A DNA stretch of 64,000 nt from the NCBI RefSeq assembly GCF_000243115.2, contig NZ_CP007035.1, forward strand, positions 4,402,001 through 4,466,000, in the 5' to 3' direction. Below, in pieces: positions 12,849 through 60,954 of this stretch. Position numbers and translations under genes: made by a program. The notes beneath the pieces were generated by a model. That model did no database searches and had not been told where the DNA came from. It saw only the letters and a program-made list of their open reading frames with translations. Position 1 is the stretch's first letter. Each line of letters opens with the position of its first letter. The stretch is from Niabella soli DSM 19437 (lineage in GTDB: Bacteria > Bacteroidota > Bacteroidia > Chitinophagales > Chitinophagaceae).

Positions 12849-13298
12849 ATGGCTGTGAAAATATTTTTCGAAGAATTTATAACAGGAGCGCAACGTACAA
12901 CTACCGGCAGAACCATTACGGAGGCTGATATTGTTTTACATGCCGGTCAGACAGGTGATTTTTACCCGCACCATATGGATGCGGAATGGTGTAAAACGCA
13001 GCCTTTTAAGCAGCGGATAGCACACGGAACCCTTATTTTTAGCGTAGGGGTAGGATTGACGGCGGGTGTGATCAATGATGTGGCGATGACCTATGGATAT
13101 GAACGTTTGCGTTTTTTGACTCCCGTTTTTATAAATGACACCATTACAACAACCATAACCATAAAAGAAAAGCGGGACCATAAAAAACCCGGATTCGGCA
13201 TTGTTACAGAGTTGTTGGAAGTATACAATCAGCATCGGCAGTTGGTATTGGTTTGCGAACATTTATTGTTGGTGCAAAAAAAGGAATTGCATGGATAA
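12849..13298 (+). CDS. MaoC-like hot-dog hydratase/dehydratase
   Basis: A 149-residue hot-dog fold protein of the MaoC/(R)-hydratase group. The catalytic pair is probably D37 and H42 ([10 protein letters not shown]), the Asp-x4-His spacing of (R)-specific enoyl-CoA hydratases, followed by the conserved IAHG at 57-60. Such enzymes add or remove water on CoA thioesters, which fits the two CoA-transferases downstream. ATG 12849 is chosen; an in-frame TTG at 12801 would add 16 residues with no homology to the family. The stop overlaps the next gene by 8 bases, so the two are translationally linked. It heads a seven-gene operon that ends at 19725. Confidence 0.85.
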
Positions 13299-14466
13299 GG
13301 TGGTGCTTAAAGGGATTGCGTGGGATCATACACGTGGTATTGTGCCTTTACAGGCCGCGGGGCAACGCTATAGCGAACGGCATCCGGGCGTTGAGATACG
13401 ATGGGATAAACGCAGTCTACAGGCTTTTGCCGATTATTCTATCGAAAGCCTGTCAAAAGAGTATGACCTGTTGATCATTGACCATCCCTGGGTGGGCAGC
13501 GCGGCTGTTACGGGGTGCGTAGTGGCATTGGATGATTATATTCCGAAAGATGCTCTTGCGGTACTGGAAGCGAACAGCGCCGGCGTTTCGCATAGTAGTT
13601 ATCACTATGATGGCCGGCAATGGGCGCTGGCTATTGATGCGGCAACCCCTGTAGCCAGTATGCGCACCGATCTGTTGGCAGCAAATGATCTTGCCGCGCC
13701 CGAAACATGGGAGCAGGTGATAGCCCTGGCAAAAAAAGGAAAGGTTGCGGCACCCGCTATTCCTATCGACCTGCTCATGAACTTCTATACTTTTTGTATT
13801 GCAGAGGGCGAAGAGCCGTTTGATGGTGATGTGGTTGTGTCGGAAGCAACAGGGACAAGGGCTTTAGATACAATGAAAGAATTATATACGGCGTTGGCCC
13901 CGGGCTTTTTTAATATGAACCCTATCCTTGTGGCAGAAGTCATGAGCAATACAGACGATTATTACTATTGCCCTTTTGCCTATGGCTATTCCAATTATTC
14001 AAGAAAGCAATACAGTAAAAATATATTGACATATGCTGATGTGGTTACGTTCGGTAATAAACCGTTGCGGACCACTTTGGGCGGAACCGGCATAGCGGTA
14101 GCTGCAGAAAGTTTGCATAAATCGATTGCGGCAGCCTTTGCACAATTTGTCTGCTCCCCCGGGTGGCAGGCGTCCGAATATATTTTATCTGGCGGGCAGC
14201 CGGGATATGCATTTGGCTACCAGGACCCGTTGAATAACCAGGTTTGCAACCGGTTCTTTACAAATACAAAGGCAACGCTAGACAACGCCTACCTGCGTCC
14301 CAGGTACCACGGCTACCTGCAATTCCAGGAGGAAGGCGGGTTCTATATACAGGAATTTTTAAAAGGAAGGATACAATCGGCTTCATTGGTGCTAAATAAA
14401 TTGAATCTGCTGTATACTGAAAGTTTACAAAAATCAGATAAAAACCTATGCAACAACAGCCGTTAA
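13291..14466 (+). CDS. Solute-binding-protein homologue without signal peptide
   Basis: A 391-residue protein resembling family 1 sugar solute-binding proteins: two-lobe pattern with an early [11 protein letters not shown] strand and [12 protein letters not shown], then [14 protein letters not shown] and a C-terminal helical part. It starts [16 protein letters not shown] directly at the first beta strand; there is no signal peptide or lipobox. The in-frame extension back to 13201 lies inside the MaoC gene, has no hydrophobic core and is not a credible secretion signal. No ABC permease or ATPase gene is in the window. It overlaps its neighbours on both sides (8 and 19 bases) between MaoC and CoA-transferase genes. 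It may therefore act in the cytoplasm as a binding protein, scaffold or an enzyme built on this fold. Confidence 0.75.
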
Positions 14467-15590
14467 AGGGATTAGTGGTATTGGAATTTGGCCAGTATTT
14501 ATCCGGGCCTTCCGCTGGTATGCGTTTGGCTGATCTGGGTGCCCGGGTGATAAAAATCGAACGGCCACGGGGGGGGGACCCTTGCCGGCAACTGGCAGTA
14601 AAAAATTTATGGGTGGGAGAGGATTCGCTGAATTTCCATGCGATCAATCGAAATAAAGAGAGTTTCACAGCCGATCTGAAAAATAAAGAAGATTTTGAGC
14701 TGGTTCAGAAATTGATCCGCAAGGCGGATGTACTGACGCATAATTTCAGACCGGGCGTGATGGAGAAGATCGGATTGGCTTACAAGGATGTGAAAGCGCT
14801 TAATGAAAAAATTATCTACGCGGAAATATCCGGCTTTGGTCGTAAGGGCCCCTGGGCGCAGAAACCGGGTCAGGATCTGTTGATCCAATCACTGTCGGGG
14901 CTTACTTACACCACGGGCAATTCCGGTGCAGCACCGGTTCCTTTTGGTTTGTCTGTTGTAGATACGATCAGCGGTAATCACCTGGTGCAGGCAGTACTGG
15001 GCGCGCTCATCCGCCGGCAAAAAAAAGGGGTAGGCGCTTATATCGAACTGAGTTTGTTAGAGTCTGCGATCAGCCTGCAGTTTGAATTGTTTACTACCTT
15101 CTTTCACAAACAGGAGGGTATTCGCCGCAGTAAGATAAATAATGGCAATCCCTTGCTGGGCGCGCCTTATGGCGTATATAAAACGGCCGATCATTTTCTT
15201 TCATTAGCAATGATGGACCTGCAGCAACTGGGAGAAGCTTTGGGTAGTGAAGCGTTAAAGAAATATGGCCCCGGGGATGCTTTTAAAAAACGGGATGAAA
15301 TAAAGGCATTGGTTGCTGCGAAACTTCGGACAGGTACTACGGTATATTGGCTGGAGCGGTTGCGGGAAAAGGGATTGTGGGCTTCAGAGATTTATAACTG
15401 GAATGACCTGCGGCAATCTGAGGGTTACCAGGTTGTCCGGATGGAGCAACAACTGCAGGTAGGTCAAAAAACGATTACGACAACACGATGCCCCATCCGG
15501 CTCAACGGAGAAAAAATCAATTCGTCAAAACCCGCACCCGCACTGGGGCAGCACAGGACGGCGATTATAAAAGAATTATTGGAGGATTAA
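14448..15590 (+). CDS. CaiB/BaiF family III CoA-transferase, first copy
   Basis: A 380-residue protein of the formyl-CoA transferase type, near the family's usual length of about 400. The N-terminal motif is FGQYLSGPSAGMRLADLGARVIKIERP. The probable catalytic aspartate is D172 in SVVDTISG, the position of D169 in formyl-CoA transferase, after FGLSV. Family III enzymes move CoA between carboxylic acids through aspartyl-CoA. It starts inside the end of the solute-binding-protein gene (19-base overlap) and is followed after one base by a paralogue. Substrate unknown. Confidence 0.9.
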   Translation: MQQQPLKGLVVLEFGQYLSGPSAGMRLADLGARVIKIERPRGGDPCRQLAVKNLWVGEDSLNFHAINRNKESFTADLKNKEDFELVQKLIRKADVLTHNFRPGVMEKIGLAYKDVKALNEKIIYAEISGFGRKGPWAQKPGQDLLIQSLSGLTYTTGNSGAAPVPFGLSVVDTISGNHLVQAVLGALIRRQKKGVGAYIELSLLESAISLQFELFTTFFHKQEGIRRSKINNGNPLLGAPYGVYKTADHFLSLAMMDLQQLGEALGSEALKKYGPGDAFKKRDEIKALVAAKLRTGTTVYWLERLREKGLWASEIYNWNDLRQSEGYQVVRMEQQLQVGQKTITTTRCPIRLNGEKINSSKPAPALGQHRTAIIKELLED

Positions 15591-15591
15591 G

Positions 15592-16767
15592 ATGCTTTTT
15601 TTGGAAGACATATTAGTGGTGGATTTCAGCCAGTTTTTATCGGGCCCGTCAACTTCTTTAACCTTAGCAGATATGGGTGCTCGGGTGATCAAGGTGGAGA
15701 AACCGGGTACGGGTGATATTTGCAGGGAATTATATGTGTCGGACGTAATGATCGACGGAGAGTCCTCTATTTTCCAGGCGATCAATCGCGGCAAGCAAAG
15801 CTATGTGGCCGATCTGAAAAGTGAAGCCGATCTTTTTAAAATAAAAAAACTGTTGCAGCAGGCCGATGTGGTCATTCATAATTTTCGTCCGGGCGTCATG
15901 GAACGGCTGGGGCTGGGTTATGAAACGGTAAAAGCGATCAATCCTTCGGTGGTATATGGGAGTATAAGCGGTTTTGGCGAAGAAGGGCCGTGGAAGAAGC
16001 TTCCGGGCCAGGATCTGTTGTTACAATCCATTACAGGGATCAGCTTATTGAATGGAACGGCTTACGAAAATCCTATGCCCATGGGGGTTTCTATAGTGGA
16101 CATTTTATCCGGCACACATCTGGCACAGGGGATCTTATCCCTGTTGTATCAGCGCGCGGTTTCCGGCCAGGGCGGAGCGGTAACGGTGAGCATGCTGGAA
16201 AGCGCGCTCGATTTTCAGTTCGAGGTGCTGACGTGTTATTATAATGATGGTAACGAATTGCCACTGCGTAGTGCGGTGAACGGTGGCCATCCCTATGTGG
16301 GCGCGCCGTATGGTATTTATAAAACAGCAGACGCCTGGCTGGCGCTGGCAATGACGGATATTGTAAACCTGGGGAAATTACTGGGATGTGCCGCATTAAC
16401 GGAATATGTAAATAAAAACGATTGGTTTGAAAAGCGGGATGAGATTAAAGCGATATTGGCCGCGCACTTGAAAACAGGGGCAACTAAAGAGTGGCTGGAA
16501 ATGCTAGAGCCCGCGGATGTGTGGTGCTCGGAAGTATTGAGTTACGGAGCGTTGCGGAAGCATCCGGCCTACCGCGCGCTGGATATGGAAATGACGGTTA
16601 CCAATAGTAAAGGTACCCGCATCACTACTACCCGGAGCCCGTTTAAAGTAGATGGGGCACTGCTTACAGGAACAATCGCCGCGCCTTTACTGGGAGAACA
16701 CACCCTTGCTATTGATAAAGAATTTGGGCTAAATCAATTGCAAAAACAGGATGCCGTTGTATCTTAG
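15592..16767 (+). CDS. CaiB/BaiF family III CoA-transferase, second copy
   Basis: A 391-residue paralogue of the preceding gene; many blocks are shared (FSQFLSGPST, HNFRPGVMERLGLGY, ISGFGEEGPW, LPGQDLL, GAPYGIYKTAD). The catalytic aspartate is probably D170 in SIVDILSG, so both copies look active. Family III enzymes form interlocked dimers; two adjacent, equally intact genes could give a heterodimer or two enzymes acting on successive acids. It lies one base after the first copy. Confidence 0.9.
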   Translation: MLFLEDILVVDFSQFLSGPSTSLTLADMGARVIKVEKPGTGDICRELYVSDVMIDGESSIFQAINRGKQSYVADLKSEADLFKIKKLLQQADVVIHNFRPGVMERLGLGYETVKAINPSVVYGSISGFGEEGPWKKLPGQDLLLQSITGISLLNGTAYENPMPMGVSIVDILSGTHLAQGILSLLYQRAVSGQGGAVTVSMLESALDFQFEVLTCYYNDGNELPLRSAVNGGHPYVGAPYGIYKTADAWLALAMTDIVNLGKLLGCAALTEYVNKNDWFEKRDEIKAILAAHLKTGATKEWLEMLEPADVWCSEVLSYGALRKHPAYRALDMEMTVTNSKGTRITTTRSPFKVDGALLTGTIAAPLLGEHTLAIDKEFGLNQLQKQDAVVS

Positions 16768-16782
16768 GTGATAAAAAAAATA

Positions 16783-17628
16783 ATGATGATCATTGATACA
16801 CATATACATATTTGGGATACAGGGAAATCGACCTACAGTTGGTTGTCCGGGGCACCTGAATTATTGAAACGTACCTATACGATCAAAGAGCTGGAGACGC
16901 CGAGAAAACAAGCGGGTATTGATGCAGGTATTTTTGTGCAGGCAGACGTACAACTGGAAGATTCTTTTCATATGCTGGAAGTGGCCAAAAGAACAGACTG
17001 GATCAAAGGTGTGGTAAGCTGGTTGCCCCTGGCGAATACTGAAAGAACAGATCAGTTATTAAACGATCGTCTGTTGCACGATGAATACTTCGTGGGGGTG
17101 CGCCATCTGATCCATGACGAGGCCGATCCGGAATGGCTGCTGCAGGAGCCTGTTATTGAAAGCCTGAAATTATTGGCCGCGCATAATATTCCGTATGATG
17201 TGGTGGGGATTCTACCGGCGCACCTGGAAACGATTTTGAAAGTGGCCGAAAAAGTGCCGGACCTGCGTATGGTGTTTGACCACCTGAATGCGCCGCCCAT
17301 ACAGGAGGGGTATCGGTTTGGCCGCTGGGGTGAACTGATGGGGGAAGTTGCTTCCAATAAAAATATGTATGCAAAGATTTCCGGCCTGGGCACGGTTGCC
17401 GGTAGCGACCGGTTTAACGCCGGTACACTGAAACCTTATATAGAATTTATTCTCAAAAATTTTTCAGCCGATCGTTGTTTTTGCGGAGGCGATTGGCCGG
17501 TATCCTTACTGGCGGCAGATTACGTTACCACCTGGAATATCTATAAAGAAGTACTAACAACTTTATTGGATGGTAGTGAACAGGAAAAACTGTTTTCGGG
17601 TAATGCCATTCAATTTTATAACCTCTAG
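16783..17628 (+). CDS. Amidohydrolase-family lactonase-like protein (COG3618)
   Basis: A 281-residue TIM-barrel hydrolase of the amidohydrolase_2 group that includes L-fucono-1,5-lactonase, L-rhamnono-lactonase and 2-pyrone-4,6-dicarboxylate lactonase. It has the HxH motif at the N terminus (IIDTHIHIWD, H7 and H9), and the late catalytic aspartate is D237 in CGGDWPVS. It would open a sugar lactone made by a dehydrogenase. The upstream in-frame GTG at 16768 directly abuts the preceding stop; ATG 16783 (or 16786) gives the N terminus usual for the family. One base separates its stop from the transporter gene. Confidence 0.82.
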   Translation: MMIIDTHIHIWDTGKSTYSWLSGAPELLKRTYTIKELETPRKQAGIDAGIFVQADVQLEDSFHMLEVAKRTDWIKGVVSWLPLANTERTDQLLNDRLLHDEYFVGVRHLIHDEADPEWLLQEPVIESLKLLAAHNIPYDVVGILPAHLETILKVAEKVPDLRMVFDHLNAPPIQEGYRFGRWGELMGEVASNKNMYAKISGLGTVAGSDRFNAGTLKPYIEFILKNFSADRCFCGGDWPVSLLAADYVTTWNIYKEVLTTLLDGSEQEKLFSGNAIQFYNL

Positions 17629-17629
17629 C

Positions 17630-18658
17630 ATGCAATTATTCAATGGTATATTTTTTCACGGCGTGGGCGCTTCATCAGCGGCACTATGCTATACCCCTGA
17701 GAAAAAGGTAAAGGGATGGTCCTGGCAAACCTATTGGCTGGCACAGGCATCCGTATGCTGGCTGTTATTGCCCGTAATTGTCGCCCTGCTTTCCATTCCC
17801 TCATTGACAGCAGTATTGCACGAAGCGCCCGCCACGGCCATGCGTAATTCCTTTTTATTGGGGATGGCCTATGGTGTGGGCGGAACGGCTTTTGGGGTCG
17901 CTATTAAATACATCGGGTTCTCTCTGACCTATGCAATTTCTGTGGGCCTTTCCTGTGTGCTGGGCACGCTGTTGCCGCCCGTGATGGACGGAACTATCGG
18001 GGAGGTGACGAGCGGACGCGGCGGCGGCTGGATCGTTACCGGGGTATTTCTTGGGGTAGTAGGTATTGCCTTTTGCGGGTTGGCCGGTTGGCTCAAGGAA
18101 AAAAAAAGTAATGGATTGCAACCCGGCTTCTCCTTAAAAAAAGGGCTGCCTTTATGCCTGCTGGCTGGCGTCCTTTCTGCGTTTTACGGCTTTGCGATCA
18201 ATGCCGGCAAGCCCATATCGGACATTGCCGCAAAATATGGCGCGGGTAATTTCCAGGTGAATGTTGTTTACATTTTCTCAAATACGGGCGCCTTTCTTAC
18301 CACTTTATTCTATACAGTTTATCTGCATAATAAAAATAAAACCTGGGGACAGTACACCAACAGCGTTGTGAAAAAAGGGTTGTCTTTAAATTATTTGATG
18401 GCATTGCTTACCGGGGTGCTTTGGTACGGGCAATTTTTCTTTTATGGGCTGGGACATATACAACTGGGCCGGTACCAGTTTTCAAGCTGGGCTATTCATA
18501 TGATCCTTTTGGTCTTTTTTAGTTCATTGGTAGGCCTGGTGCTAAAGGAATGGAAAGGAACTACCGGCAGCACAAAAGGAATGCTGGCAGCGGCGCTGCT
18601 GGTATTGTTGCTGGCCGTCATTGTATTAACCTACGGTAATTATTTAGGAGGAATTTAA
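17630..18658 (+). CDS. rhaT: RhaT-like L-rhamnose/proton symporter family permease
   Basis: A 342-residue membrane protein with about ten hydrophobic segments, matching the 344 residues of Escherichia coli RhaT. The N-terminal FFHGVGASSAALCYTPEKKVKGWSW and the motif with MAYGVGGTAFGVAIKYIGFSL correspond to RhaT. RhaT brings L-rhamnose (and L-lyxose) across the inner membrane with H+. ATG 17630 is preferred to an earlier start at 17570, which lies in the lactonase gene. It is the operon's only transporter, so it is the best clue to the substrate: a 6-deoxyhexose or related sugar. Confidence 0.85.
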   Translation: MQLFNGIFFHGVGASSAALCYTPEKKVKGWSWQTYWLAQASVCWLLLPVIVALLSIPSLTAVLHEAPATAMRNSFLLGMAYGVGGTAFGVAIKYIGFSLTYAISVGLSCVLGTLLPPVMDGTIGEVTSGRGGGWIVTGVFLGVVGIAFCGLAGWLKEKKSNGLQPGFSLKKGLPLCLLAGVLSAFYGFAINAGKPISDIAAKYGAGNFQVNVVYIFSNTGAFLTTLFYTVYLHNKNKTWGQYTNSVVKKGLSLNYLMALLTGVLWYGQFFFYGLGHIQLGRYQFSSWAIHMILLVFFSSLVGLVLKEWKGTTGSTKGMLAAALLVLLLAVIVLTYGNYLGGI

Positions 18659-18660
18659 TC

Positions 18661-19725
18661 ATGGCTGAAAAGCGCACACCCATATGTATTATTGGAGCAG
18701 GGGGCATTGTTAAGGATGCGCACCTTCCTGCCTATAAAATAGCGGGGTTTACCGTCGGCGGCATCGTCAACCGCAACCGGCAAAAAGCGGAGGTATTGGC
18801 AACTGAGTTTAGTATTCCCCATGTATACGACACATTAGAGGCGCTGGTGGCGGAATATGGAACAGATGTGATCTATGATTACGCCTTGCCGGCATCCGAA
18901 ACGGTGCCTGTCTTACGTCAGTTGCCTGATAAAGCAACGGTATTGATCCAAAAGCCATTGGGCGAAAGTATTGAAGAAGCCCGGGCGATCCTTGACCTGG
19001 CACATGCAAAGCAACTGAATGCGGGAGTGAATTTTCAGTTGCGTTTTGCTCCGAATGTGACCGAGGCAAAAAAAATGATACGCGAGGGGGTGATCGGAAC
19101 CCTTACAGATATTGAAGTGTATGTAAATGTTTATACGCCCTGGAACCTTTGGTCCTTTCTCTTTGGCAAACCAAGGATGGAGATCAATTACCACAGTGTA
19201 CATTATATTGACCTGATCCGGTCGTTCCTGGGAAATCCGGATACCGTGTATGCTAAGACCTTTAAGCATCCCGACTCGCCTGAGCTGGCATCTGTAAAAA
19301 GCACGATCATTATGGATTACGGAGATAGCATCCGTGCGGTTATTCATACGAATCACCATCATGATTTTGGTTATAAGCACCAGGGGGCGCATATAAAAAT
19401 TGAAGGCACCCTGGGCGTTATAAAAATGAGTTTGGGGGTATTGATCGATTATCCGCACGGCGTGCCGGATACCTTTGAATATGCTGTCGTTGATAAACAG
19501 CCGGTTCAATGGCAATCAAAACAGATAGAAGGAACCTGGTTCCCACATGCGTTTATTGGAACCATGCAGCAAATGATGGATGCGAAAGAGGGCCGCATCG
19601 AACGGCCGGAAAATAATATTGACGACGCTTTTGAAACCATGCGGTGTGTGGAGGCTGCCTACGTAAGCAGCGCACACGGAGGAATACCACTTAAGGAAGT
19701 AGGAGGCGCCCCGGAGGAGGCTTAA
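18661..19725 (+). CDS. Gfo/Idh/MocA-family oxidoreductase
   Basis: A 354-residue NAD(P)-dependent dehydrogenase of the Gfo/Idh/MocA family. The Rossmann motif is IIGAGGIVKDAH (GAGGI at 12-16); the usual EKP motif is QKP here (97-99), and the substrate domain contains INYHSVHYIDLIRSFLG with a conserved His. These enzymes oxidise or reduce sugars and cyclitols. With the lactonase two genes upstream, a natural reading is sugar to lactone to acid. It is two bases after the symporter gene and ends the operon. Confidence 0.88.
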   Translation: MAEKRTPICIIGAGGIVKDAHLPAYKIAGFTVGGIVNRNRQKAEVLATEFSIPHVYDTLEALVAEYGTDVIYDYALPASETVPVLRQLPDKATVLIQKPLGESIEEARAILDLAHAKQLNAGVNFQLRFAPNVTEAKKMIREGVIGTLTDIEVYVNVYTPWNLWSFLFGKPRMEINYHSVHYIDLIRSFLGNPDTVYAKTFKHPDSPELASVKSTIIMDYGDSIRAVIHTNHHHDFGYKHQGAHIKIEGTLGVIKMSLGVLIDYPHGVPDTFEYAVVDKQPVQWQSKQIEGTWFPHAFIGTMQQMMDAKEGRIERPENNIDDAFETMRCVEAAYVSSAHGGIPLKEVGGAPEEA

Positions 19726-19863: not shown

Positions 19864-22602
19864 ATGAGAATATTGATAATCGGGATCATCCTTTTTTTTA
19901 TTATCGCGCCGGTAAAGGCAACGGCAGTAAAAAACAAAGTAGCATTGGGAGTGGCCGCCAATGCGGCGCCCCGTGTGCAGTTTGGCGTGCAATATCTGCA
20001 GGAGGCGCTTAAAGCAACAGGCTACGAAGTCCATATTGTTGCGCCAGGAACAAAACCCGGAACCGGGCAGTTTATATTGATTCAAACGCCTGCGGATCGC
20101 GCACCTGTAAAAAAAGAAAGTTTTACGATCAATGCGGTAAAGCAATATATCACGATCAAAGGAGGCGATGCATCCGGTACCATGTACGGCTGTTTTGAGC
20201 TGGCGGATCGGATCAAACGTTCAGGGACTATTCCACAGGAGCTTACTTTCACAGATGCACCGGAAATGGTGCTGCGGGGACAGTGCATCGGCCTGCAAAA
20301 ACCTTATTACCTGCCGGGGCGCAATGTGTATGAATATCCCTACACCCCGCAAACTTTCCCCTGGTTTTATAATAAAAAATTATGGATACAGGTGCTGGAC
20401 TCCATGGCGCATAACCGGATGAATTCCCTGTATCTCTGGAACGGTCATCCTTTTGCCTCACTGGTGCGGCTCAGGGATTATCCTTACGCGGTGGAAGTAG
20501 ACGACGCTACCTTTAAACTGAATGAAGAAATGTACCGTTTCCTTACAACGGAAGCGGATAAAAGAGGCATTTGGGTGATCCAGATGTTTTACAATATTAT
20601 CGTTTCAAAACCCTTTGCAGAGAAGAATCATTTAAAAACACAGGAACGCGAACGACCGATCCTTCCCATTATTGCCGACTACACGCGAAAATCCATAGCG
20701 GCCTTTGTTGAAAAATACCCGCATGTGGGGTTGATGGTTTGCCTGGGAGAGGCGATGCAGGGCATCGGGAATGACGATATCGAGTGGTTTACGAAAACCA
20801 TTATCCCCGGGGTAAAAGATGGATTAAAGGCCCTGGGTGAAAAAGACCCCTCAGTTGCGTCAGAAGAGCCGCCGATCGTATTGCGTGCGCATGATACCGA
20901 TGCTCCTTCTGTTATGAAGGCAGCTTTACCGCTGTACAAAAATTTATATACCGAAGCCAAATTTAATGGTGAGGCATTGACAGATCCCCGTCCCAGAGGC
21001 CCATGGGCAGCGCTGCATCAAACGCTGAGCAAGCTGGGAAGCGTGCACATCGCAAACGTACATATCCTGGCGAACCTGGAACCCTTCCGGTATGGAGCGC
21101 CGGATTTTATACAGCAATGCGCTATCGGAATGAACGAAGTGTTGGGGGCGCATGGATTGCATTTGTATCCTGAAGCTTCCTACTGGGATTGGCCGTACAC
21201 TGCCGACAGTATTAAAAACGGAAAACGATTATTACAGGTAGAGCGGGATTGGGTGTGGTACAAGGCCTGGAGCCGCTATGCATGGAAATCAAAACGGCCG
21301 GGCAATGAAGAGGCTGATTACTGGAGCCGGCTGATGGGCGGACAGTTTGGAGTAAGTGAAGAAAAAGGGAAAGCTATTCTGCGCTCCTATGAAGCAATGG
21401 GGCTGATTGCGCCCAAGTTGCTGCGCCGGTTTGGTATTACAGATGGCAATCGCCAGACATTGACACTGGGCATGCTGATGACGCAACTCATCAATCCATA
21501 CCGCTACGGGCTGTTTACTTTATTGTACGAAGGCGAAAGCCCTGAAGGGGAGATGCTGACGGAGTATGCGGATAAAGAATGGAACCACCAGCCACATATC
21601 GGCGAAACTCCTGTGCAGATTGCAAAAGAAGTACGCAAACATGGTGATGATGCAGTGGCGGCGCTTCAGGGCCTGGATAAAACTATCCTGAAAAATAAAG
21701 ATGAATTTGCCCGCATTCAAAATGATGCGGCCTGCTATCGGGCGCTGGCGTATCATTATGCGGCAAAAGCAGAAGCGGCTTTATTTGTATTGCGGTATAA
21801 ATATTCCAATGACCTGAAAGATCTGGATAAAGCGGAACCATTATTAAAAGAAAGCCTGAACTGGTATGAGCAGTTGGTGCGTCTTACCAAAGGCAGCTAT
21901 CTTTATGCAAACAGCATGCAAACGCAGCAGCGTAAGATCCCGATCAGGGGCGTGAACGGAACCTTCAAAACATGGGCGGAAGTACTCGTGCCCTTTAAAC
22001 AGGAATATGCCCATTTTGAAAAAGCGCTGGATTCATTAAAGGCGTCCTCTAAGTTAGGGGCTGCTAACAGAACTGCATTAAAAAATGCGGCTGTACAATT
22101 ACAGGGCGATTATGACCGGTTTAGGATCGACAGCCTGAGCGCTGTTTTTAAAGATACAGCGTTGGCCATTCGCTCCTATGCACCGGAGCTAAAAGGGTTG
22201 ATGGGTGTCAAAATGGCCTTTAAGCAACAGGTAAAAGAGCCGGCCGCTATTTCTTTTACTAATGCTAAGCCGGTAAAAGTGCTGGTGGGCTTCTTTAAAC
22301 AGCAGAAGGCCGCGTTTACAAAAGATACGGTTTATCTGAAAGCGCCGGAACTGGAAACCAATGCGCTGGCGAATGATTACGGCCAGGCAGATACAAGGAT
22401 CGCCAATGCGTTGGTGATCCCGGGCATGCCGCCGGTAGATATTCACGTATATGAATTTAAAGCCGGTACTAATACATTAAAACTGGAACGCGGTGTCGCA
22501 TTGATTTTGGGGTTTGTTGACGGCGATAACCTTGTTCCTGTTTACGATGCCGGATTATTTGAGAGCGGCAATAAAAAGCAGGTGGACTGGTTATTTGAAT
22601 AA
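19864..22602 (+). CDS. Secreted GH67N-like putative glycosidase
   Basis: A 912-residue protein with a signal peptide (MRILIIGIILFFIIAPVKATA). Residues about 25-130 resemble the N-terminal GH67N/GH20b alpha-beta domain found before barrels of alpha-glucuronidases and hexosaminidases (FGVQYLQEALKATGYEV, GTMYGCFELADRI). About 135-480 look like a TIM barrel (MAHNRMNSLYLW, VGLMVCLGEAMQGIG, YTEAKFNGEA), with E candidates in LGEAM and in EAKF. The remainder is helical, with a final beta-rich domain. It is probably a glycosidase acting on a uronic acid or rhamnose-containing chain; I cannot place it in a numbered CAZy family with confidence. Confidence 0.7.
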   Translation: MRILIIGIILFFIIAPVKATAVKNKVALGVAANAAPRVQFGVQYLQEALKATGYEVHIVAPGTKPGTGQFILIQTPADRAPVKKESFTINAVKQYITIKGGDASGTMYGCFELADRIKRSGTIPQELTFTDAPEMVLRGQCIGLQKPYYLPGRNVYEYPYTPQTFPWFYNKKLWIQVLDSMAHNRMNSLYLWNGHPFASLVRLRDYPYAVEVDDATFKLNEEMYRFLTTEADKRGIWVIQMFYNIIVSKPFAEKNHLKTQERERPILPIIADYTRKSIAAFVEKYPHVGLMVCLGEAMQGIGNDDIEWFTKTIIPGVKDGLKALGEKDPSVASEEPPIVLRAHDTDAPSVMKAALPLYKNLYTEAKFNGEALTDPRPRGPWAALHQTLSKLGSVHIANVHILANLEPFRYGAPDFIQQCAIGMNEVLGAHGLHLYPEASYWDWPYTADSIKNGKRLLQVERDWVWYKAWSRYAWKSKRPGNEEADYWSRLMGGQFGVSEEKGKAILRSYEAMGLIAPKLLRRFGITDGNRQTLTLGMLMTQLINPYRYGLFTLLYEGESPEGEMLTEYADKEWNHQPHIGETPVQIAKEVRKHGDDAVAALQGLDKTILKNKDEFARIQNDAACYRALAYHYAAKAEAALFVLRYKYSNDLKDLDKAEPLLKESLNWYEQLVRLTKGSYLYANSMQTQQRKIPIRGVNGTFKTWAEVLVPFKQEYAHFEKALDSLKASSKLGAANRTALKNAAVQLQGDYDRFRIDSLSAVFKDTALAIRSYAPELKGLMGVKMAFKQQVKEPAAISFTNAKPVKVLVGFFKQQKAAFTKDTVYLKAPELETNALANDYGQADTRIANALVIPGMPPVDIHVYEFKAGTNTLKLERGVALILGFVDGDNLVPVYDAGLFESGNKKQVDWLFE

Positions 22603-22988: not shown

Positions 22989-24542
22989 ATGCATAAGATT
23001 TTTTTAATAGCGGTTGTTGGTTGTTTTGCCATAAGCGCAGGTGCGCAGTCTTATTTTGATGTTACAAAATATGGCGCAAAGAAGAATAGCAGTATCAAAG
23101 CAACAAAGGCAATCGAAAAAACAATAACGGCTGCTGCGGCGGCAGGTGGCGGAACCGTTTATTTCCCGGCAGGGAAGTACCTTACAGGCCCAATCCATTT
23201 AAAGAGCAATATCACGATCCTGATTGATGCAGGGGCAGAACTGCATTTCAGTGATGATTTTGATGATTACCTGCCGATGGTGGAGAGCCGTTATGAAGGA
23301 GTGGATGTAACCAGCTTCTCGCCTTTGTTCTATGCCAATGGTGTGGAAAATATCGCCATCACCGGAAGAGGGGTTATTGACGGGCATGGAAAAAAATGGT
23401 GGGATTTTGTAGAAGGTTATAAAGAAGGGCAGCCCCGCACTAAATGGCAGTTGGAATTTGACCGGCGGAATAAAAACATTTTATTGCCCGATGACCCGCG
23501 TCAAATGAAGCGGGGCTTTTTACGGCCGCCATTTATCCAGTTTCTGCACTCCAAAAATATCCTGATCGAAGGTATAATGATCCGCAATTCGCCCTTCTGG
23601 ACGATCAACCCGGGGTTTTGTGAAAATGTAACGGTTCATGCGGTAACCATCAATAATCCGGGCAGCAATGCGCCCAACACGGACGGCATCAATCCTGAAA
23701 GTTGTAGCAATGTGCATATCAGTGATTGTCATATCAGCGTGGGCGATGACTGCATCACCATTAAATCGGGAAAGGACATTCCCGGGCGCTCCAAAAACCG
23801 CCCGGCGGAGAATTATACGATCACCAATTGTACCATGTTGCGCGGGCACGGTGGGGTAGTGATCGGTAGTGAAATGAGCGGAGGGGTAAAAAAGATTGCC
23901 ATCAGTAATTGTATTTTTGATGGCACAGACCGGGGGATCCGCATCAAAACTGCACGGGGCCGGGGTGGCGTGGTAGAGGATATCCGTGTCAGCAATATTG
24001 TGATGAAGAATATTGCTGAGCAGGCGATTGTTTTGGATATGGAATATGCCAAAGGTGCGGAAGAACCCGTTTCCGAAAGGACGCCCACATTCCGGAATAT
24101 CCGCCTGAGCAATATTACGGCTTACACGAACCAGGCCTTATTGATAAATGGGATTAGGGAAATGCCCGTGTCGGGCATCAGTCTGAATGACGTGGTATTC
24201 GAAGCCCGTCAGGGTATCGTGTTAAAGAATGCTGCTGATATATCATTGAATAACGTAAAAATTAGAATCCCTGCAGGAACAGCGCTGAAAGCGGATCAGG
24301 TGGAACGCCTGGATGTCAATAACTTTGAAGCAACAGTGCCTGCTGGCGATGCATTTGTCCTTCAACTGAACGATGTAAAAGGAGCTCGTATACGAAACTG
24401 CTGGCTCCCTAACGATAGCGCGAAATTCGCAGCCGTTACTGGTGCTCAAACGCGGCAAATCATTTTTAAAAACAACGATGGTAAAAACGGACAGGTGTTC
24501 ATGGGCAAGGAGGTGAACGGTGCTGAGGTTGTAAAAGATTAA
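22989..24542 (+). CDS. GH28 polygalacturonase-type glycoside hydrolase
   Basis: A 517-residue secreted parallel beta-helix enzyme (signal MHKIFLIAVVGCFAISAGAQ). All four GH28 signatures are present: NTDG (230-233, D232), GDD (252-254, D253 and D254), GHGG (H287) and RIK (R318, K320). GH28 enzymes cut alpha-1,4-linked galacturonic acid, or rhamnogalacturonan, by inversion, with the three aspartates as catalytic residues. The N terminus YFDVTKYGAKKNSS and the WWDF insert resemble bacterial exo-acting members. It is the first enzyme after the GH67N-like gene, on the same strand. Confidence 0.95.
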   Translation: MHKIFLIAVVGCFAISAGAQSYFDVTKYGAKKNSSIKATKAIEKTITAAAAAGGGTVYFPAGKYLTGPIHLKSNITILIDAGAELHFSDDFDDYLPMVESRYEGVDVTSFSPLFYANGVENIAITGRGVIDGHGKKWWDFVEGYKEGQPRTKWQLEFDRRNKNILLPDDPRQMKRGFLRPPFIQFLHSKNILIEGIMIRNSPFWTINPGFCENVTVHAVTINNPGSNAPNTDGINPESCSNVHISDCHISVGDDCITIKSGKDIPGRSKNRPAENYTITNCTMLRGHGGVVIGSEMSGGVKKIAISNCIFDGTDRGIRIKTARGRGGVVEDIRVSNIVMKNIAEQAIVLDMEYAKGAEEPVSERTPTFRNIRLSNITAYTNQALLINGIREMPVSGISLNDVVFEARQGIVLKNAADISLNNVKIRIPAGTALKADQVERLDVNNFEATVPAGDAFVLQLNDVKGARIRNCWLPNDSAKFAAVTGAQTRQIIFKNNDGKNGQVFMGKEVNGAEVVKD

Positions 24543-24766: not shown

Positions 24767-27607
24767 ATGAAGAATAGCAAAACGATTTTGTTTCTGGTTG
24801 CCGTTTTTGTGGCGGTGCAGTTGCCCGCGCAGGACCTGAAGCTTTGGTACCAGCACCCTGCCAAAGAATGGGTGGAGGCCTTACCCATTGGTAACGGGCG
24901 GTTAGGAGCAATGGTCTTTGGAGGTGTGCAAACAGACCGGGTGCAGTTCAATGAAGAAACCCTGTGGTCTGGCTACCCAAGAGATTATAATAAAAAAGGA
25001 GCCTACAGGTACCTTGATTCTATAAGAGGGTTGCTTTTTGCCGGTAAACAAAAAGAAGCGGAGGACCTGGCGGGGCGTGAATTTATGGGCCTGAAATCGG
25101 CCGACGGCGACCGGCAGGCGTGGATCAAAAAACAAAAAGAAGTACTGGATCAACGATCGAATCCCTCACAGACGCAATACAATGATCTGTCCTGGAAGCG
25201 TATACACCAACCCAATTATGACGGATGGGAAAAGGAAGGACTTGGAGAACTGGATGGTGCCGTATGGTTGCGAAAAACCTTTGACCTGCCTGAAGGCTGG
25301 AAAGGAAAGGACCTGGTGCTGGATATCAATAAAATTACGGATCTCGATTATACCTATGTAAACGGAGTGCTGATCGGCAGTCAGGATAATGATGCGGCAC
25401 GCAACTATAAAATCCCAGCATCAGCCTTAAAAGCAGGAAGGAACTGTATTGCGATACTGGTGCTCAACTTTGCAAACAAAGGCGGGATACTGGGGTATAA
25501 GGATGCCGGCAAACAAATTGGGATCTATCCCGTTAAGGGAAATGAAAAAGATAAATTGTCTTTAAACGGGCAATGGAAGTATTTGATTCAAACAGACCAG
25601 GTGCCCGCCGTAGGAGAGTTTCAGGCAAGGTACCAGCCTTTTGGGGATGTGGTTTTTCATGTTAATGCAGACGAAACAAAAGTTAAAGATTACCGCCGGG
25701 TACTGGACCTGGAAACAGCGGTGCTCACTACTGCCTACAATTACAATGGCGTTGATTTTAAACGAACCTATATCGCCAGTCAGCCCCAACAGGTGCTGGC
25801 CGTGAACTTTACGGCAAGTCGCCCGGGCTCGGTGAGCTTTGAAACCGAATTGACCAGCCCGCACCAACATTTTATTGTGGAGGCTGTTGACCAGCAAACA
25901 TTGGTGCTGAAGATACAGGTAAAAGACGGCGCGCTGCGGGGCGAAAGCTATGTGCAGGTTCGGGTTACCAAAGGATCTGTCGCGGTAAAGGATAATAAAC
26001 TAATTGTTAGTAAAGCCGATGAGGCCACTGTCTTTATCGCGGCAGCTACCAATTTCAAAAATTTTAAAGATGTGTCCGCGGACCCATCGGCGCGCTGTAG
26101 AGCAGCAATAAAGGGCATACAACAGCAATCGTTCGCGTCGGTGTTGAAAGCACATGTGAAGGAATACCAGCAGTATTTCAATACACTGTCCGTAAATTTT
26201 TATGGTCAGAAAAATCAGCCTTCGGCCAATGAATCCTTACCCACAGATCTGCGGCTGGAAAAATTTGCCCGTTCCGGCGACCCGGAATTCGTGGCCCTGT
26301 ACATGCAGTACGGTCGCTATCTTTTAATAAGCAGTTCCCGCCCGGGCACCTATCCTGCTAACCTTCAGGGAATTTGGAACGAATTATTATCACCCCCCTG
26401 GGGTAGTAAGTACACGACAAACATTAATGCCGAGATGAACTACTGGCCGGCGGAGCTGCTGGGCTTATCGCCCTTGCATGATGCGTTATTCAAAATGGTG
26501 GAAGAGCTGGCAGTATCAGGAAAAGAAACAGCGAAAGAATATTATAACGCGCCGGGATGGGTATTGCATCACAATACAGATCTGTGGCGGGGTACGGCCG
26601 CCATTAATGCTTCCAATCATGGTATTTGGGTAACGGGCGGCGCCTGGCTTTGTTCGCATCTATGGGAGCGCTACCTGTTTACAAAGGACGAGCGGTTTTT
26701 AAAAGATACGGCATACCCGATCATGCGGGAGGCGGCTTTGTTCTTCAATCATTTTTTAATAAAAGATCCCGTAACGGGCTACCTGATCAGCACCCCCTCC
26801 AATTCGCCCGAACACGGAGGGTTGGTTGCCGGCCCTACCATGGATCATCAGATCATCCGGGCATTATTTAAAAGCACCATCGAAGCCTCTCAGATTTTGA
26901 AAACAGATGCGGCATTACGGAAGGAGCTGGAAGAAAAATATCCGCGGATCGCTCCCAATAAAATAGGTCGCTTCGGACAGTTGCAGGAATGGATGCAGGA
27001 TGTAGACGATACCACCGATAAACACCGTCATGTATCACACCTCTGGGGTGTTTACCCGGGCAATGAGATCAATTGGGAAACGGCTCCGGAACTGATGAAG
27101 GCCGCCCGGCAATCGCTTATCTATCGGGGGGATGCGGCTACGGGATGGAGCCTGGGCTGGAAGATCAATTTATGGGCACGGTTTAAAGACGGGAATCATA
27201 CTTATAAACTGATACAAATGCTACTGACGCCTGCCGGGAGAAGCGCAGGAAGTTACCCGAATTTATTTGACGCCCATCCCCCGTTTCAGATCGATGGCAA
27301 TTTTGGCGGCGCTGCGGGTATTGGTGAAATGCTGTTGCAATCCCATACTGCATTTGTTGATATTTTACCGGCCTTGCCGGATGCGTTGCCCAATGGCCGC
27401 ATCAATGGGATCCATGCCCGCGGCGGACTGATACTGGACATCGCATGGGAACAAAAACATTTGACCCAACTGAATATAAAAGCAATCGCGGACGGATCGG
27501 CTCAACTGCGATACATGGGTAAGGTACTTCCGTTTAATTTTAAAAAAGGAAGACAATACAGTGTGAGCGCGGATTTTAAACGGGTCGTCGAAAATGAGAA
27601 ACGATAA
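24767..27607 (+). CDS. GH95 alpha-L-fucosidase/alpha-L-galactosidase with inserted domain
   Basis: A 946-residue secreted enzyme. The GH95 N-terminal domain starts LWYQHPAKEWVEALPIGNGRLGAMVFGG, and the (alpha/alpha)6 barrel carries the expected residues: N552 and N554 in TTNINAEMNYWPAE, E682 in SNSPEH and D843 in QIDGNFGG. Between about residues 140 and 285 an extra galactose-binding-like beta sandwich (GLGELDGAVWLRKTFDLPEG, YVNGVLIGSQDN) splits the N-terminal domain; similar modules occur in GH2 enzymes and sialate O-acetylesterases. GH95 removes alpha-1,2-L-fucose or L-galactose by inversion, sugars found in xyloglucan and rhamnogalacturonan II. Confidence 0.92.
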   Translation: MKNSKTILFLVAVFVAVQLPAQDLKLWYQHPAKEWVEALPIGNGRLGAMVFGGVQTDRVQFNEETLWSGYPRDYNKKGAYRYLDSIRGLLFAGKQKEAEDLAGREFMGLKSADGDRQAWIKKQKEVLDQRSNPSQTQYNDLSWKRIHQPNYDGWEKEGLGELDGAVWLRKTFDLPEGWKGKDLVLDINKITDLDYTYVNGVLIGSQDNDAARNYKIPASALKAGRNCIAILVLNFANKGGILGYKDAGKQIGIYPVKGNEKDKLSLNGQWKYLIQTDQVPAVGEFQARYQPFGDVVFHVNADETKVKDYRRVLDLETAVLTTAYNYNGVDFKRTYIASQPQQVLAVNFTASRPGSVSFETELTSPHQHFIVEAVDQQTLVLKIQVKDGALRGESYVQVRVTKGSVAVKDNKLIVSKADEATVFIAAATNFKNFKDVSADPSARCRAAIKGIQQQSFASVLKAHVKEYQQYFNTLSVNFYGQKNQPSANESLPTDLRLEKFARSGDPEFVALYMQYGRYLLISSSRPGTYPANLQGIWNELLSPPWGSKYTTNINAEMNYWPAELLGLSPLHDALFKMVEELAVSGKETAKEYYNAPGWVLHHNTDLWRGTAAINASNHGIWVTGGAWLCSHLWERYLFTKDERFLKDTAYPIMREAALFFNHFLIKDPVTGYLISTPSNSPEHGGLVAGPTMDHQIIRALFKSTIEASQILKTDAALRKELEEKYPRIAPNKIGRFGQLQEWMQDVDDTTDKHRHVSHLWGVYPGNEINWETAPELMKAARQSLIYRGDAATGWSLGWKINLWARFKDGNHTYKLIQMLLTPAGRSAGSYPNLFDAHPPFQIDGNFGGAAGIGEMLLQSHTAFVDILPALPDALPNGRINGIHARGGLILDIAWEQKHLTQLNIKAIADGSAQLRYMGKVLPFNFKKGRQYSVSADFKRVVENEKR

Positions 27608-27936: not shown

Positions 27937-30900
27937 ATGAAGGCGGTTGCAATGCTTTATAAGATCCGGTGGAGCGCTATTTTGATAGCGTTTCAGTTTC
28001 TTTTAAGCAATACAGCGGTCGCACAGCCCCGCGACACGATTTCGTTAAATGAAGGCTGGGTCAGTATTAAAGCGGCCACAGGATCACAAAAATATACAGG
28101 ATTTGAAAAGCCCGGTTATTCCACAACCGGCTGGAAAAAGATAACCGTCCCGCATAACTGGGATGATTACTATGGATACCGGCGGTTGCTGCACGGAAAT
28201 TTGCATGGCAATGCCTGGTATAAGAAAAAGTTTACGCTTAAGAAACAAAGCGGAAAAAGATATTTCCTTTTTTTTGAAGGAGTGGGTTCCTATGCCACCG
28301 TTTGGGTAAATGGTATAAAAATAGGGACGCATGCGGGGGGACGCACCACCTTTACACTGGATATAACGGATGCCGTGAAACAGAATGGCGTTAATGATCT
28401 TGCCGTACTGGCAAAACACCCGGCGGGCATTACCGATCTGCCCTGGGTTTGTGGTGGCTGCAGTGAGGAACGCGGTTTTTCGGAAGGATCGCAGCCAATG
28501 GGTATTTTTCGCCCTGTACATTTAATTGTTACCAACCCCGTTTATATCGCGCCTTTTGGCGTGCACGCCTGGGCGGATATAAAAAAAGAGCAGACTAAAT
28601 TATTTGTTGACCTCACGATTAAGAATACAGGCAACCCGTCTGTTGCTGCACAATTAATTACACTGGTAAAGAACCGGCAACAGCAGGTGGTTGCGGCCGA
28701 TAGTCAGCAGGTGCAGTTAAAAATGGATAATATAACCCGGCAGGTGTTGTTGGTAAAGCAACCGGAATTATGGTCGCCGGCGCATCCGTATCTGTACACA
28801 ATTGAAACGATAATAAAAACAGGTGGTGTGGAAGCTGATAAAGTAAGAACTGATTTTGGATTCAGGACCATTCAATGGAAAACTTCCACCCACCAGTTTT
28901 TATTAAACGGGCAACCCGTATTTATAAATGGTATTGCGGGGTATGAGCACCAATTGGGACAGAGCCATGCTTTTGCTGATGAAGAAATTGATGCAAGGGT
29001 GAAATGGCTGCAGGCTGCGGGTTTTAATGCTTTTCGCGACGCGCATCAACCGCACAACTTAAGATACGGCAGTTTGTTTGACCAGAAAGGGATCCTGTGG
29101 TGGCCACAGTTGTCCGCACATATCTGGTACGATACGCCTGCCTTTCGGGATCAGTTTAAGGCGTCTTTAAAAGAATGGATAGTGGAGCGCAGGAATGATC
29201 CGGCGGTGATATTATGGGGGCTGCAGAATGAAAGCAAACTGCCGGAGGATTTTGCAAAGGAATGCACCGAGCTGGTCCGGAGCTTGGACCCTACGGCATC
29301 TGTAGAGCGGCTGGTAACCACCTGTAATGGCGGAAAAGGAACGGATTGGGACGTGCCGCAGAACTGGACCGGAACCTACGGCGGGGATCCGGATACATAT
29401 GCACAGGATCTGAAGAAACAAGTGCTGGTTGGTGAATACGGTGCCTGGCGGACCATTGATCTGCACTCGGATAACAGCAAGCGGCAACCGGCTTCTTATC
29501 CGGAAGAACAAATGGTGGCCCTGATGGAAAAAAAACTGCGCTTAGGTGAACAGGCAAAGGATAGTAGTGCCGGCCATTTTTTCTGGTTGTTGAATTCGCA
29601 TGATAACCCGGGACGGGTGCAGGGCGGAGAAGGATTCAGGGGAATAGATCGTATCGGGCCGGTAAATTATAAAGGGATGTTGACGCCCTGGGAAGAACCG
29701 ACGGATGTGTATTATATGTACCGCTCTAATTATGCGCCCAAAAAAACAGACCCGATGGTGTATATCGCTTCGCATACCTGGCCCAACCGGTGGATAACAC
29801 CGGGGACCAAAGATTCGATAGTGGTGTACTCGAATTGCGATGAAGTGGAGCTGTTTAATGATATGGAAGGGTCTTCATTGGGCAAACAAAAAAATAAGAG
29901 ACGGGGCTATCATTTTCAATGGGATCAGGTTCCGGTCCGTTACAATATTTTATACGCCGTAGGTTATGTAAACGGAAGAGCCGTGGCACGCGATACCATT
30001 GTATTATATCATTTGCCAAAAGCGCCTCACTTTGATCAATTGTACAAAGGCGCACAGAATATAACAGCATCCCAAAAAGGCTATCAATATGTTTACCGGG
30101 TTAATTGCGGCGGCCCCGATTACATAGACGAAAATAAAAACACCTGGCAGGCCGACCGTTCGTTACCTTCTGAAAACGAACGTCAAACTTTAAACATCAA
30201 ACCTCAAACAAATTTCTGGGGTTCCGTTTCCTGGGCGGATCGCTTTCCGGGTATGCCGGCGGTATTCGCCAGCCAGCGACGCAGTTTTTCTCCGGTAAAG
30301 GGAACCCGCGACTGGTCGCTGTTTCAGCAGTTCCGGTATGGTAAAGCGGATTTGAATTATACCTTTCCGCTGCCCGACGGGAATTATATCGTAGAACTCT
30401 ATTTTACAGAACCCTGGCTGGGTATAGGCGGTGGTATAGATGCAACCGGAATGCGACTGTTTGATGTGGCATTTAATAATGAAGTGGTGCTGAAGGATCT
30501 TGATATCTGGAAAGAGGTAGGGACCAATACAGCCTTAAAAAAAATAGTTCCGGTAACAGTGACTGGGGGAAGACTGGTGATTTCCTTTCCGCATTCCAAA
30601 GCGGGGCAGGCGCTCATTTCCGCTATAGCAATTGCCACCCGGGCAAACAACATGCGATCCGCAGCTACTTTTGAAAATATAACCAATCTTAAAGGCGATG
30701 GAATCATGCAGCGTACATGGCTCGACATAGGAGACGCACCTTTTGCAAATGAAAAAATTCAGATCCATCAACTACCACCGGAGCTTTTTGCAGCAGACTG
30801 GATCCAAACGAACAGGAAGCAAACAAAAGAACTGTCGTTTAAGGTTCGTCTGCCATCAGACATTTATAAGGCTGTATTTCCGGAGCTGTCAGCCAGAGCT

Positions 30901-60938: not shown

Positions 60939-60954
60939 TCTGAAACACAGTAAG

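Follow-up and report, generated by a model that had tools for sequence, protein, structure and literature searches.

The oxidative (non-phosphorylating) pathway of L-fucose and L-rhamnose proceeds by known steps, with NF052480 and NF053535 among its enzyme families, and itaconate/mesaconate coenzyme A (CoA) modules combine a family III CoA-transferase with a MaoC-type hydratase. Knowledge of how bacteria break down rhamnogalacturonan II (RG-II), the most complex plant pectin, comes mostly from single enzymes; for most RG-II genes of Bacteroides thetaiotaomicron, the functions usually given are assumed here. A seven-gene operon of Niabella soli DSM 19437 was analysed within a window of 64,000 nt (GCF_000243115.2, NZ_CP007035.1, positions 4,402,001–4,466,000, forward strand). 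It encodes a MaoC-type protein, a solute-binding protein homologue (SBP1), two family III CoA-transferases (CaiB1 and CaiB2), an amidohydrolase, a RhaT-family symporter and a Gfo/Idh/MocA dehydrogenase (Gfo). The likeness to the oxidative L-fucose/L-rhamnose pathway lies in the sugar dehydrogenase, the amidohydrolase-type lactonase, the short-chain dehydrogenase/reductase (SDR) and the FAH-type hydrolase, found in one neighbourhood in Labrenzia and Sinorhizobium meliloti together with a homologue of L-fuconate dehydratase, whereas here two CoA-transferases, MaoC and SBP1 stand in place of the aldonate dehydratase. With the itaconate/mesaconate modules, the operon shares the CoA-transferase and hydratase types, but a CitE/HpcH-type lyase is absent from the seven genes, among which a lactonase, a sugar dehydrogenase and a sugar carrier are encoded instead. 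In the deoxyribonate catabolism of Klebsiella michiganensis, a sugar acid is likewise oxidised as CoA-bound intermediates, with a CoA-transferase in the cluster; unlike here, the route ends in cleavage to glyceryl-CoA and acetyl-CoA, and that text mentions neither MaoC nor Gfo (PMC6365646). The surroundings of the operon resemble the B. thetaiotaomicron RG-II system in their GH139, GH95, alpha-galacturonidase, apiosidase, rhamnosidase and BT_1020-like types (PMC12282258). Among literature titles and abstract beginnings, no account was found of the cellular fate of the methylated RG-II sugars and none of CoA-linked use of an RG-II sugar.

The operon is a real, conserved module of RG-II loci and likely serves CoA-linked sugar-acid catabolism, its reactions being deduced from the protein families. 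The reading favoured here, with a probability of roughly 0.48, is that it constitutes the intracellular catabolic module of the RG-II locus and acts on 2-O-methyl-L-fucose (MeFuc) or a close L-6-deoxyhexose. For MeFuc itself as the favoured substrate the odds are about even, other RG-II sugars being possible.

The association with RG-II was followed in 59 genomes of relatives (N. soli included) and in 296 Bacteroidota genomes, the phylum sample, where SBP1 was scored as present at E < 1e-100; a genome with E = 7e-4 (G254) was not scored positive. The counts of GH139 (DUF5703) quoted first follow the Pfam cut-off, the limits of E < 1e-95 and E < 1e-100 having been picked post hoc, and the p-values are indicative, since the genomes are related. 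GH139 was encoded in 19 of the 20 SBP1-positive relatives, the exception being G013, and in 4 of the 39 negative ones (p = 1e-10). Within the same family, the figures were 19/20 and 4/16 (p = 2e-5). With E < 1e-95, GH139 was left in 2/39 of all and 2/16 of the same-family negatives; the genomes added by the Pfam cut-off as GH139-positive and SBP1-negative are G014 and G018 among the relatives and G082 and G192 in the phylum sample. In 14 of the 19 genomes, GH139 and SBP1 lay on one contig at most 131 kb apart (at most 20 kb in eight); the distance was 578 kb in G004, and four genomes had them on different contigs. In the phylum sample, SBP1 was detected in 16 genomes, GH139 in 17 and both in 12 (p = 1e-14), 11 of these 12 having them within 110 kb. 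The RG-II alpha-D-galacturonidase exceeded its cut-off in 14 genomes, 11 of them with SBP1 (p = 5e-14) and all 11 within 90 kb. GH139 was the nearer of the two in 8 of these 11 (15–38 kb, against 64–86 kb for the galacturonidase), and the galacturonidase was nearer in N. soli, G008 and G216 (7–8 kb, against 70–104 kb for GH139). The RG-II hint of the initial annotation is well supported by the locus enzymes and by the co-occurrence with galacturonidase and GH139. Three genomes (G232, G272 and G304) have GH139 and the galacturonidase and lack SBP1, so RG-II depolymerisation does not need the module.

According to the GH139 paper, BT0984 removes 2-O-methyl-L-fucose from RG-II chain B, is active on 4NP-2-O-methyl-fucoside and inactive on 4NP-fucoside, and a second GH139 tested was inactive; structures 9hyq and 9hmb were deposited with that paper (PMC12282258). 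The genes around SBP1 were examined in 99 anchored loci (L023–L121; L042, L043 and L049 are duplicate genomes of L023, L028 and L032). DUF5703 proteins flanked 10 of them, one weakly, and a candidate in L083 (26% over 266 residues) was not accepted as GH139. One such neighbour matched 9hyq with 824 bits and 9hmb with 264 bits; 9hyq was taken as BT0984 because the residue numbers of the paper fit it with an offset of one. The N. soli protein (PF18961, 382 bits, G000:C1:4518189) and that of a Rufibacter plasmid are identical to BT0984 at all 11 checked residues, including the Trp triad for chain-B MeFuc. Those of L036, L037, L039, L069 and L092 depart from it solely at W162 among the eleven positions, and those of L089, L093 and L094 retain the core -1 subsite (W403, Q411, N412, E561, W683 and D723). 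The GH139 gene is situated inside the operon in L089, L093 and L094 and directly upstream of MaoC in L036, and no other glycosidase was seen close to the set in L039 or on the Rufibacter plasmid (L163). The plasmid island encodes SusC, SusD, GH139, SBP1, two CaiB proteins, a second solute-binding fold, Gfo, MaoC and RhaT.

The initial annotation proposed to check whether the gene set stays together in other genomes, and it is conserved, both in the relatives and across the 99 loci. The SBP1 gene was found in 20 of the 59 genomes (N. soli counted), and CaiB1 and CaiB2 adjoin it downstream in 19; the exception, G013, carries a divergent SBP1 at a contig end in a genome 74% complete. MaoC is located directly upstream of SBP1 in 17 of the 19 and later in the operon in L034 and L039. 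A wider scan of named genomes, in which the best 80 of at least 574 SBP1 relatives were retained, revealed mostly Chitinophagaceae and Sphingobacteriaceae, with Gilvimarinus, Vibrio, Microbulbifer, Hirschia, Paenibacillus, Cohnella, Ammoniphilus and Demequina as other hosts. The set is conserved within Bacteroidota, and altered forms of it occur in Pseudomonadota, Bacillota and Actinomycetota. Per 99 loci, with the three repeats and counted up to 9 kb from SBP1, CaiB was present in 89, Gfo in 71, MaoC and the amidohydrolase in 64 each, RhaT in 52, FucP-like carriers in 14, crotonase in 14 (outside the operon in L027 and L029), IclR in 11, aldehyde dehydrogenase in 10 and a second solute-binding fold in 8. 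A CaiB gene followed SBP1 directly within 300 bases in 81 loci, and in 6 of the other 18 (L081, L088, L089, L093, L094 and L098) the CaiB pair was upstream. The position of RhaT is taken in other loci by FucP-like carriers, one of which, in L111, scored above the FucP cut-off. In a tree of 54 hand-chosen CoA-transferase rows (2 from the window, 9 plasmid-borne and 43 from 24 loci), CaiB1 formed a clade of 20 rows (100/100) uniting Bacteroidota, Pseudomonadota and Actinomycetota, which implies that the CoA-transferase pair is old; the alphaproteobacterial plasmid and Bacillota enzymes fell outside this clade.

All seven reading frames of the operon are open, on the same strand and without internal stop codons (Table 1). 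The tight packing claimed for them holds, as starts at 16783 and 17630 give overlaps of 8 and 19 bases and gaps of 1, 15, 1 and 2. Every protein matched a Pfam family above the cut-off, and no NCBIfam model scored above its cut-off for any of the seven. MaoC keeps the GDxxPxH motif, present also in 63 of 70 family members, and the Asp motifs PFGLSVVD and PMGVSIVD are intact in the two CoA-transferases, this Asp presumably being the catalytic residue of family III enzymes. In the amidohydrolase, a DTHIH motif is present, and its sole NCBIfam match was NF052480 (L-fucono-1,5-lactonase; 141.8 bits, cut-off 400). The symporter reached 298 bits with the NCBIfam RhaT model (cut-off 468), and the PDB matches of Gfo were weak (best 53.6 bits) and named no sugar. 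According to Pfam, no L-fuconate dehydratase is encoded among the seven genes. Carnitine, oxalate and mesaconate were rejected as substrates, the corresponding NCBIfam cut-offs being missed.

The AlphaFold model of SBP1 (predicted local distance difference test score 93.1) displayed a full two-lobe sugar-binding fold, with structural matches of Z = 38.4 to 5iai (root mean square deviation 2.7 over 369 residues) and 6dtq and of 38.3 to SmoF; the look-ups yielded the fold and no ligand. The first strand of the model begins at residue 4 and the start codon overlaps the MaoC stop, which leaves no room for a signal peptide, a feature absent from the initial annotation, and the protein is probably cytosolic because such a peptide is absent. 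A KGITWxH motif occurred in 91 of 99 SBP1 family members and, in 71 of these, was separated from the frame start by 4–9 residues; longer frames may reflect upstream start codons. Of the properties of a transport protein, SBP1 has the fold and lacks the export signal and the partner permease, no ABC permease being found by Pfam among the seven genes. As its gene is paired with that of CaiB, SBP1 may hold the substrate for this enzyme or regulate it. From the spans compared, the BLAST spans of L004, L017 and L022 were excluded for an internal stop, as was L109 from one alignment. A second solute-binding-like protein (SBP2), with no obvious signal peptide, shares the SBP1 operon in L039, L099, L105, L109, L111, L113, L118, L119 and L163; that of L109 had no NCBIfam match.

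In the proposed pathway, the RhaT-type symporter would import the sugar, Gfo would oxidise C1 to give a lactone and the amidohydrolase would open the lactone to the aldonate. CaiB1 and CaiB2, with cytosolic SBP1, would then transfer CoA to the aldonate, and this loading would acidify the C2 hydrogen enough for an elimination by MaoC. Through the loss of the 3-hydroxyl, a 2-O-methyl aldonate would become a 2-methoxy-enoyl-CoA. Hydrolysis of this enol ether would yield methanol together with 2-keto-3-deoxy-L-fuconyl-CoA. The transferases would move its CoA to a further aldonate molecule, and the resulting keto acid would enter the lower L-fucose route, in which an SDR and then an FAH-type hydrolase would produce pyruvate and L-lactate. 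The CoA would be needed because a methyl group on O-2 would block L-fucose isomerase and make L-fuconate dehydration an enol-ether dead end. The order of import, oxidation, opening, CoA activation and dehydration had been outlined in the initial annotation and is supported by the families and the conserved context, from which we infer it. The set would represent a concrete, testable pathway, with CoA as the means of dealing with a blocked carbon 2 and a possible cytosolic enzyme-partner role for a solute-binding fold, and it probably lets a soil bacterium use a hard-to-digest sugar from the pectin.

A blocked sugar such as MeFuc is favoured because isomerase-type genes for fucose and rhamnose and one for an L-fuconate-dehydratase-like enzyme lie elsewhere in the genome. 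N. soli encodes an L-fucose isomerase above the cut-off. At 4.20 Mb, it has an enolase with 39% identity to the L-fuconate dehydratase of Labrenzia, accompanied by an SDR and a FucP-like carrier, in the vicinity of a fucosidase-like gene. At 4.58 Mb, RhaT, an aldolase, an isomerase and a kinase form a set of their own (named by eye). The rhamnose isomerase of N. soli matched TIGR02629 with 497.6 bits, below the cut-off; each of the 17 genus genomes, N. soli included, had a match to this model, none above the cut-off, and no match to E. coli-type RhaA was found in the N. soli genome. Counts of the enolase superfamily were uninformative, 55 of the 59 relatives being positive. L-rhamnose and L-fucose as the simple answer are weakened by these separate gene sets in the same genome, with which neither unmodified sugar would seem to require a route that spends CoA.

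A more distant version of the operon connects the set with the lower L-fucose route. In Labrenzia and S. meliloti 2011 (by homology), SBP1 and a single CaiB are located next to or about 10 kb from a sugar operon encoding an ABC sugar importer, an enolase-family enzyme, L-rhamnose mutarotase, Gfo, MaoC, SDR, FAH, IclR and an amidohydrolase, and one gene of the Labrenzia operon is named L-fuconate dehydratase. Ponticoccus has the same set with two UxaA-type proteins replacing the dehydratase, and parts of the operon occur in the stretches read from Shinella and Thalassospira. The overlap of SBP1 and CaiB persists in S. meliloti, Shinella, Thalassospira and Labrenzia even though their order is inverted there, and this speaks for a shared function of the two. 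The identity between window and Labrenzia proteins was 58% for MaoC, 49% for CaiB2, 43% for CaiB1, 41% for Gfo, 37% for SBP1 and 30% for the amidohydrolase. The Labrenzia FAH protein is closest to 2,4-didehydro-3-deoxy-L-rhamnonate hydrolase (416 of 500 bits), whose step is common to the oxidative use of L-fucose and L-rhamnose. In N. soli, adjacent SDR and FAH genes at 1.658 Mb encode proteins that share 40% and 53% identity with their Labrenzia counterparts, the FAH protein reaching 352 of 500 bits with NF053535. A strong FAH match (E < 1e-68) was obtained in 20/20 SBP1-positive and 9/39 negative relatives, all nine being among the 16 same-family negatives.

Several observations weigh against MeFuc as the substrate or against the scheme as a whole. 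In N. soli, GH139 sits 103 kb from the operon, and 4 of the 16 SBP1-positive genomes of the phylum sample are without it. The galacturonidase flanks 36 of the 99 loci, in comparison with 10 for GH139; as both enzymes associate with SBP1 about equally, the statistics point to RG-II and not to MeFuc specifically. The in-operon GH139 proteins of L089, L093 and L094 differ from BT0984 at Q461, E472, W490, N729 and W162, and they may act on something else, given these five differences and the inactive homologue of the GH139 paper. In five Sediminibacterium-type loci, no CoA-transferases are found close to SBP1, and NCBIfam does not back the name of the Labrenzia dehydratase, its best match being L-talarate/galactarate dehydratase at 124 of 500 bits. 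The enzyme that would release methanol is unassigned, the candidates being SBP1, MaoC acting twice or spontaneous hydrolysis. The flanks of the SBP1-CaiB-CaiB sets of agar degraders contain no GH139, and MeFuc cannot be the substrate everywhere, since these bacteria carry the set without it.

The same CoA chemistry could serve L-galactose or unmodified L-fucose from RG-II, as a route beside an enolase-type dehydratase. GH95 in 17 and GH29 in 5 of the 99 loci, the FucP carrier of L111, a lactonase closest to L-fucono-1,5-lactonase and the name given to the Labrenzia dehydratase would all fit such a sugar, but this explanation is considered unlikely, as N. soli already has the isomerase and the L-fuconate-dehydratase-like enolase beside its SDR and FucP-like carrier, G031 has a separate operon with a better-scoring fuconolactonase (278 bits) and FAH, and a second, CoA-spending route for one sugar would be odd. 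L-rhamnose entering an oxidative CoA-linked branch is given only an outside chance. The RhaT-type carrier, GH78-type enzymes in 8/99 and GH106-type enzymes in 7/99 loci, the mutarotase of the alphaproteobacterial operons and an FAH family named for rhamnonate speak for it; the separate RhaT-aldolase-isomerase-kinase set, the TIGR02629 matches throughout the genus (none above the cut-off) and the replacement of RhaT by FucP-like carriers in other loci speak against it and leave L-rhamnose, one of the sugars considered in the initial annotation, less supported.

Family III CoA-transferases often use dicarboxylates (the NCBIfam matches to succinate-glutarate and mesaconate enzymes are far below the cut-offs), and an alpha-galacturonidase family member was present within 9 kb in 34/99 loci, so that a pectin sugar acid (D-galacturonate/galactarate, aceric acid, Kdo or Dha) could be considered, with the transferases acting on a dicarboxylate. 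This is regarded as quite improbable: the carriers are of RhaT or FucP type, the lactonase and lower-route genes are of L-fucose type, and no pectin enzymes were seen in the loci of alphaproteobacteria and agar degraders that contain orthologues. Aceric acid, Kdo and Dha, put forward speculatively at the outset, appear less likely than an L-fucose-type sugar, as the relatives are found in oxidative L-fucose-type operons and agar degraders. Aceric acid, described as 3-C-carboxy-5-deoxy-L-xylose (PMC5698469), would be a poor fit because its carboxylate-bearing carbon has no hydrogen. A loose sugar-oxidation toolbox with no single substrate, in which SBP1 would be merely a cytosolic sensor, would account for the carriers, oxidoreductases and hydratases that differ between phyla and for the five loci without CoA-transferases near SBP1. 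Against it speak CaiB following SBP1 within 300 bases in 81/99 loci and the overlap kept in reversed order in S. meliloti, Shinella, Thalassospira and Labrenzia, and its probability is judged to be low.

In Gilvimarinus, Microbulbifer, Vibrio, Hirschia and others, an agar-type set of SBP1-CaiB1-CaiB2-crotonase was found, in most cases accompanied by an aldehyde dehydrogenase close to AldA (491 of 500 bits in L096), and an agarase-like neighbour (c22, named by eye) was seen in seven loci. A replacement of 3,6-anhydro-L-galactonate cycloisomerase by CoA-transferase and crotonase was considered and rejected, as all 11 genomes searched encode one member of an enolase cluster 46–90% identical to the G059 copy (Demequina, with no nearby crotonase, included), and the representative of this cluster matched the solved cycloisomerase 5xd7 with 510 bits. 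With the cycloisomerase homologue present, the agar-type CoA set must serve something else. MaoC may serve 3R and crotonase 3S substrates, and 2-O-methyl-3,6-anhydro-L-galactose is a component of agar. A cross-phylum route for 2-O-methylated sugars, with SBP1-assisted CoA loading, elimination by MaoC (pectin) or crotonase (agar) and loss of methanol, is conceivable though doubtful; the agar substrate would possibly be this 2-O-methyl sugar, and the route would explain why the 11 agar-type genomes also keep an ordinary cycloisomerase homologue. A passage in one agar paper mentions only methylated galactose in agaropectin (PMC7326809). SBP1 with CaiB could serve as a genomic marker for bacteria that may finish RG-II, perhaps also methylated agar, in soil and sea. 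In the Gilvimarinus-type loci L096, L097, L101 and L103, genes for a DUF6786 protein and an SDR are transcribed divergently to the SBP1 operon.

The window looks like an RG-II locus (Table 1). Upstream of the operon, thrA, thrB and thrC were recognised by eye; the GH28-like gene and several operon names were likewise assigned by eye. The galacturonidase gene starts 138 bases downstream of the operon, and its family is taken to be an RG-II enzyme labelled GH138. The NF049877 cut-off of 1800 applies to a fused protein, and both single-gene halves score below it; here the halves are separate genes in reversed order, with the rhamnosidase gene between them. The window also has a second GH2, and most of the glycosidase families in it presumably attack RG-II. 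Beyond the window, up to 4.52 Mb, a rhamnosidase, GH106, a LacZ-type GH2 and GH139 are encoded.

Table 1. Coordinates of the operon and of further RG-II locus genes in the window, with their family matches
Feature	Position	Strand	Match
MaoC-type hydratase/dehydratase	12849..13298	+	PF01575, 83.9 bits
SBP1, solute-binding homologue	13291..14466	+	PF01547/PF13416
CaiB1, family III CoA-transferase	14448..15590	+	PF02515, 315 bits
CaiB2, family III CoA-transferase	15592..16767	+	PF02515, 319 bits
Amidohydrolase, L-fuconolactonase-like	16768 (GTG) or 16783 (ATG)..17628	+	PF04909
RhaT-family sugar:proton symporter	17603 or 17630..18658	+	PF06379, 200.6 bits
Gfo/Idh/MocA dehydrogenase	18661..19725	+	PF01408/PF22725
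Alpha-D-galacturonidase, RG-II type	19864..22602	+	NF049878, 1386.6 bits (cut-off 1300 exceeded)
GH28-like pectin hydrolase (by eye)	22989..24542	+	homologues flank 19/99 loci
GH95 alpha-L-fucosidase/galactosidase type	24767..27607	+	PF22124, 570 bits
GH2 half of NF049877 (beta-D-glucuronidase/beta-L-arabinofuranosidase)	27937..31467	+	1355 bits, model residues 364-1400
Alpha-L-rhamnosidase, GH78 type	31481..34168	+	PF17389, PF08531
Arabinofuranosidase half of NF049877	34168..35265	+	490.7 bits, model residues 6-358
Apiosidase-like enzyme	58392..59783	+	PF13204, 371.5 bits
BT_1020-like protein	60928..62793	+	PF24067, 398.4 bits

A DUF6298 protein encoded at 48249-51386 of the window, a possible undescribed RG-II enzyme, had no relative in a PDB sequence search. 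The stretch from 63129-64000 of the window onward (G000:C1:4466001-4474302), which follows the apiosidase-like and BT_1020-like genes, encodes an isomerase-like protein (by eye, without a Pfam match), a transketolase in two genes, an ABC importer with a binding protein (by eye) and an FGGY kinase, and looks like a D-apiose catabolic operon inside the RG-II locus.

Outside this locus, the SBP1 genes of L052, L055, L060, L061 and L075, which have no nearby CoA-transferases, lie, where the contig reaches, beside an enolase-type dehydratase, an aldo/keto reductase and an SSS carrier, together with mannonate-dehydratase-like, RraA-like and phytanoyl-CoA-dioxygenase-like proteins (several named by eye). 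They would represent a different sugar-acid route that retains the solute-binding fold. In L025, L026 and L028, a gene for an FMN-dependent L-lactate-dehydrogenase-like protein and one for an AP_endonuc_2 protein were detected upstream of the operon, in some with a DHDPS-family aldolase; the FAH reaction would yield L-lactate. The L-lactate-dehydrogenase-like and AP_endonuc_2 genes of N. soli (L180:838-5915) are located 70 kb from the operon.

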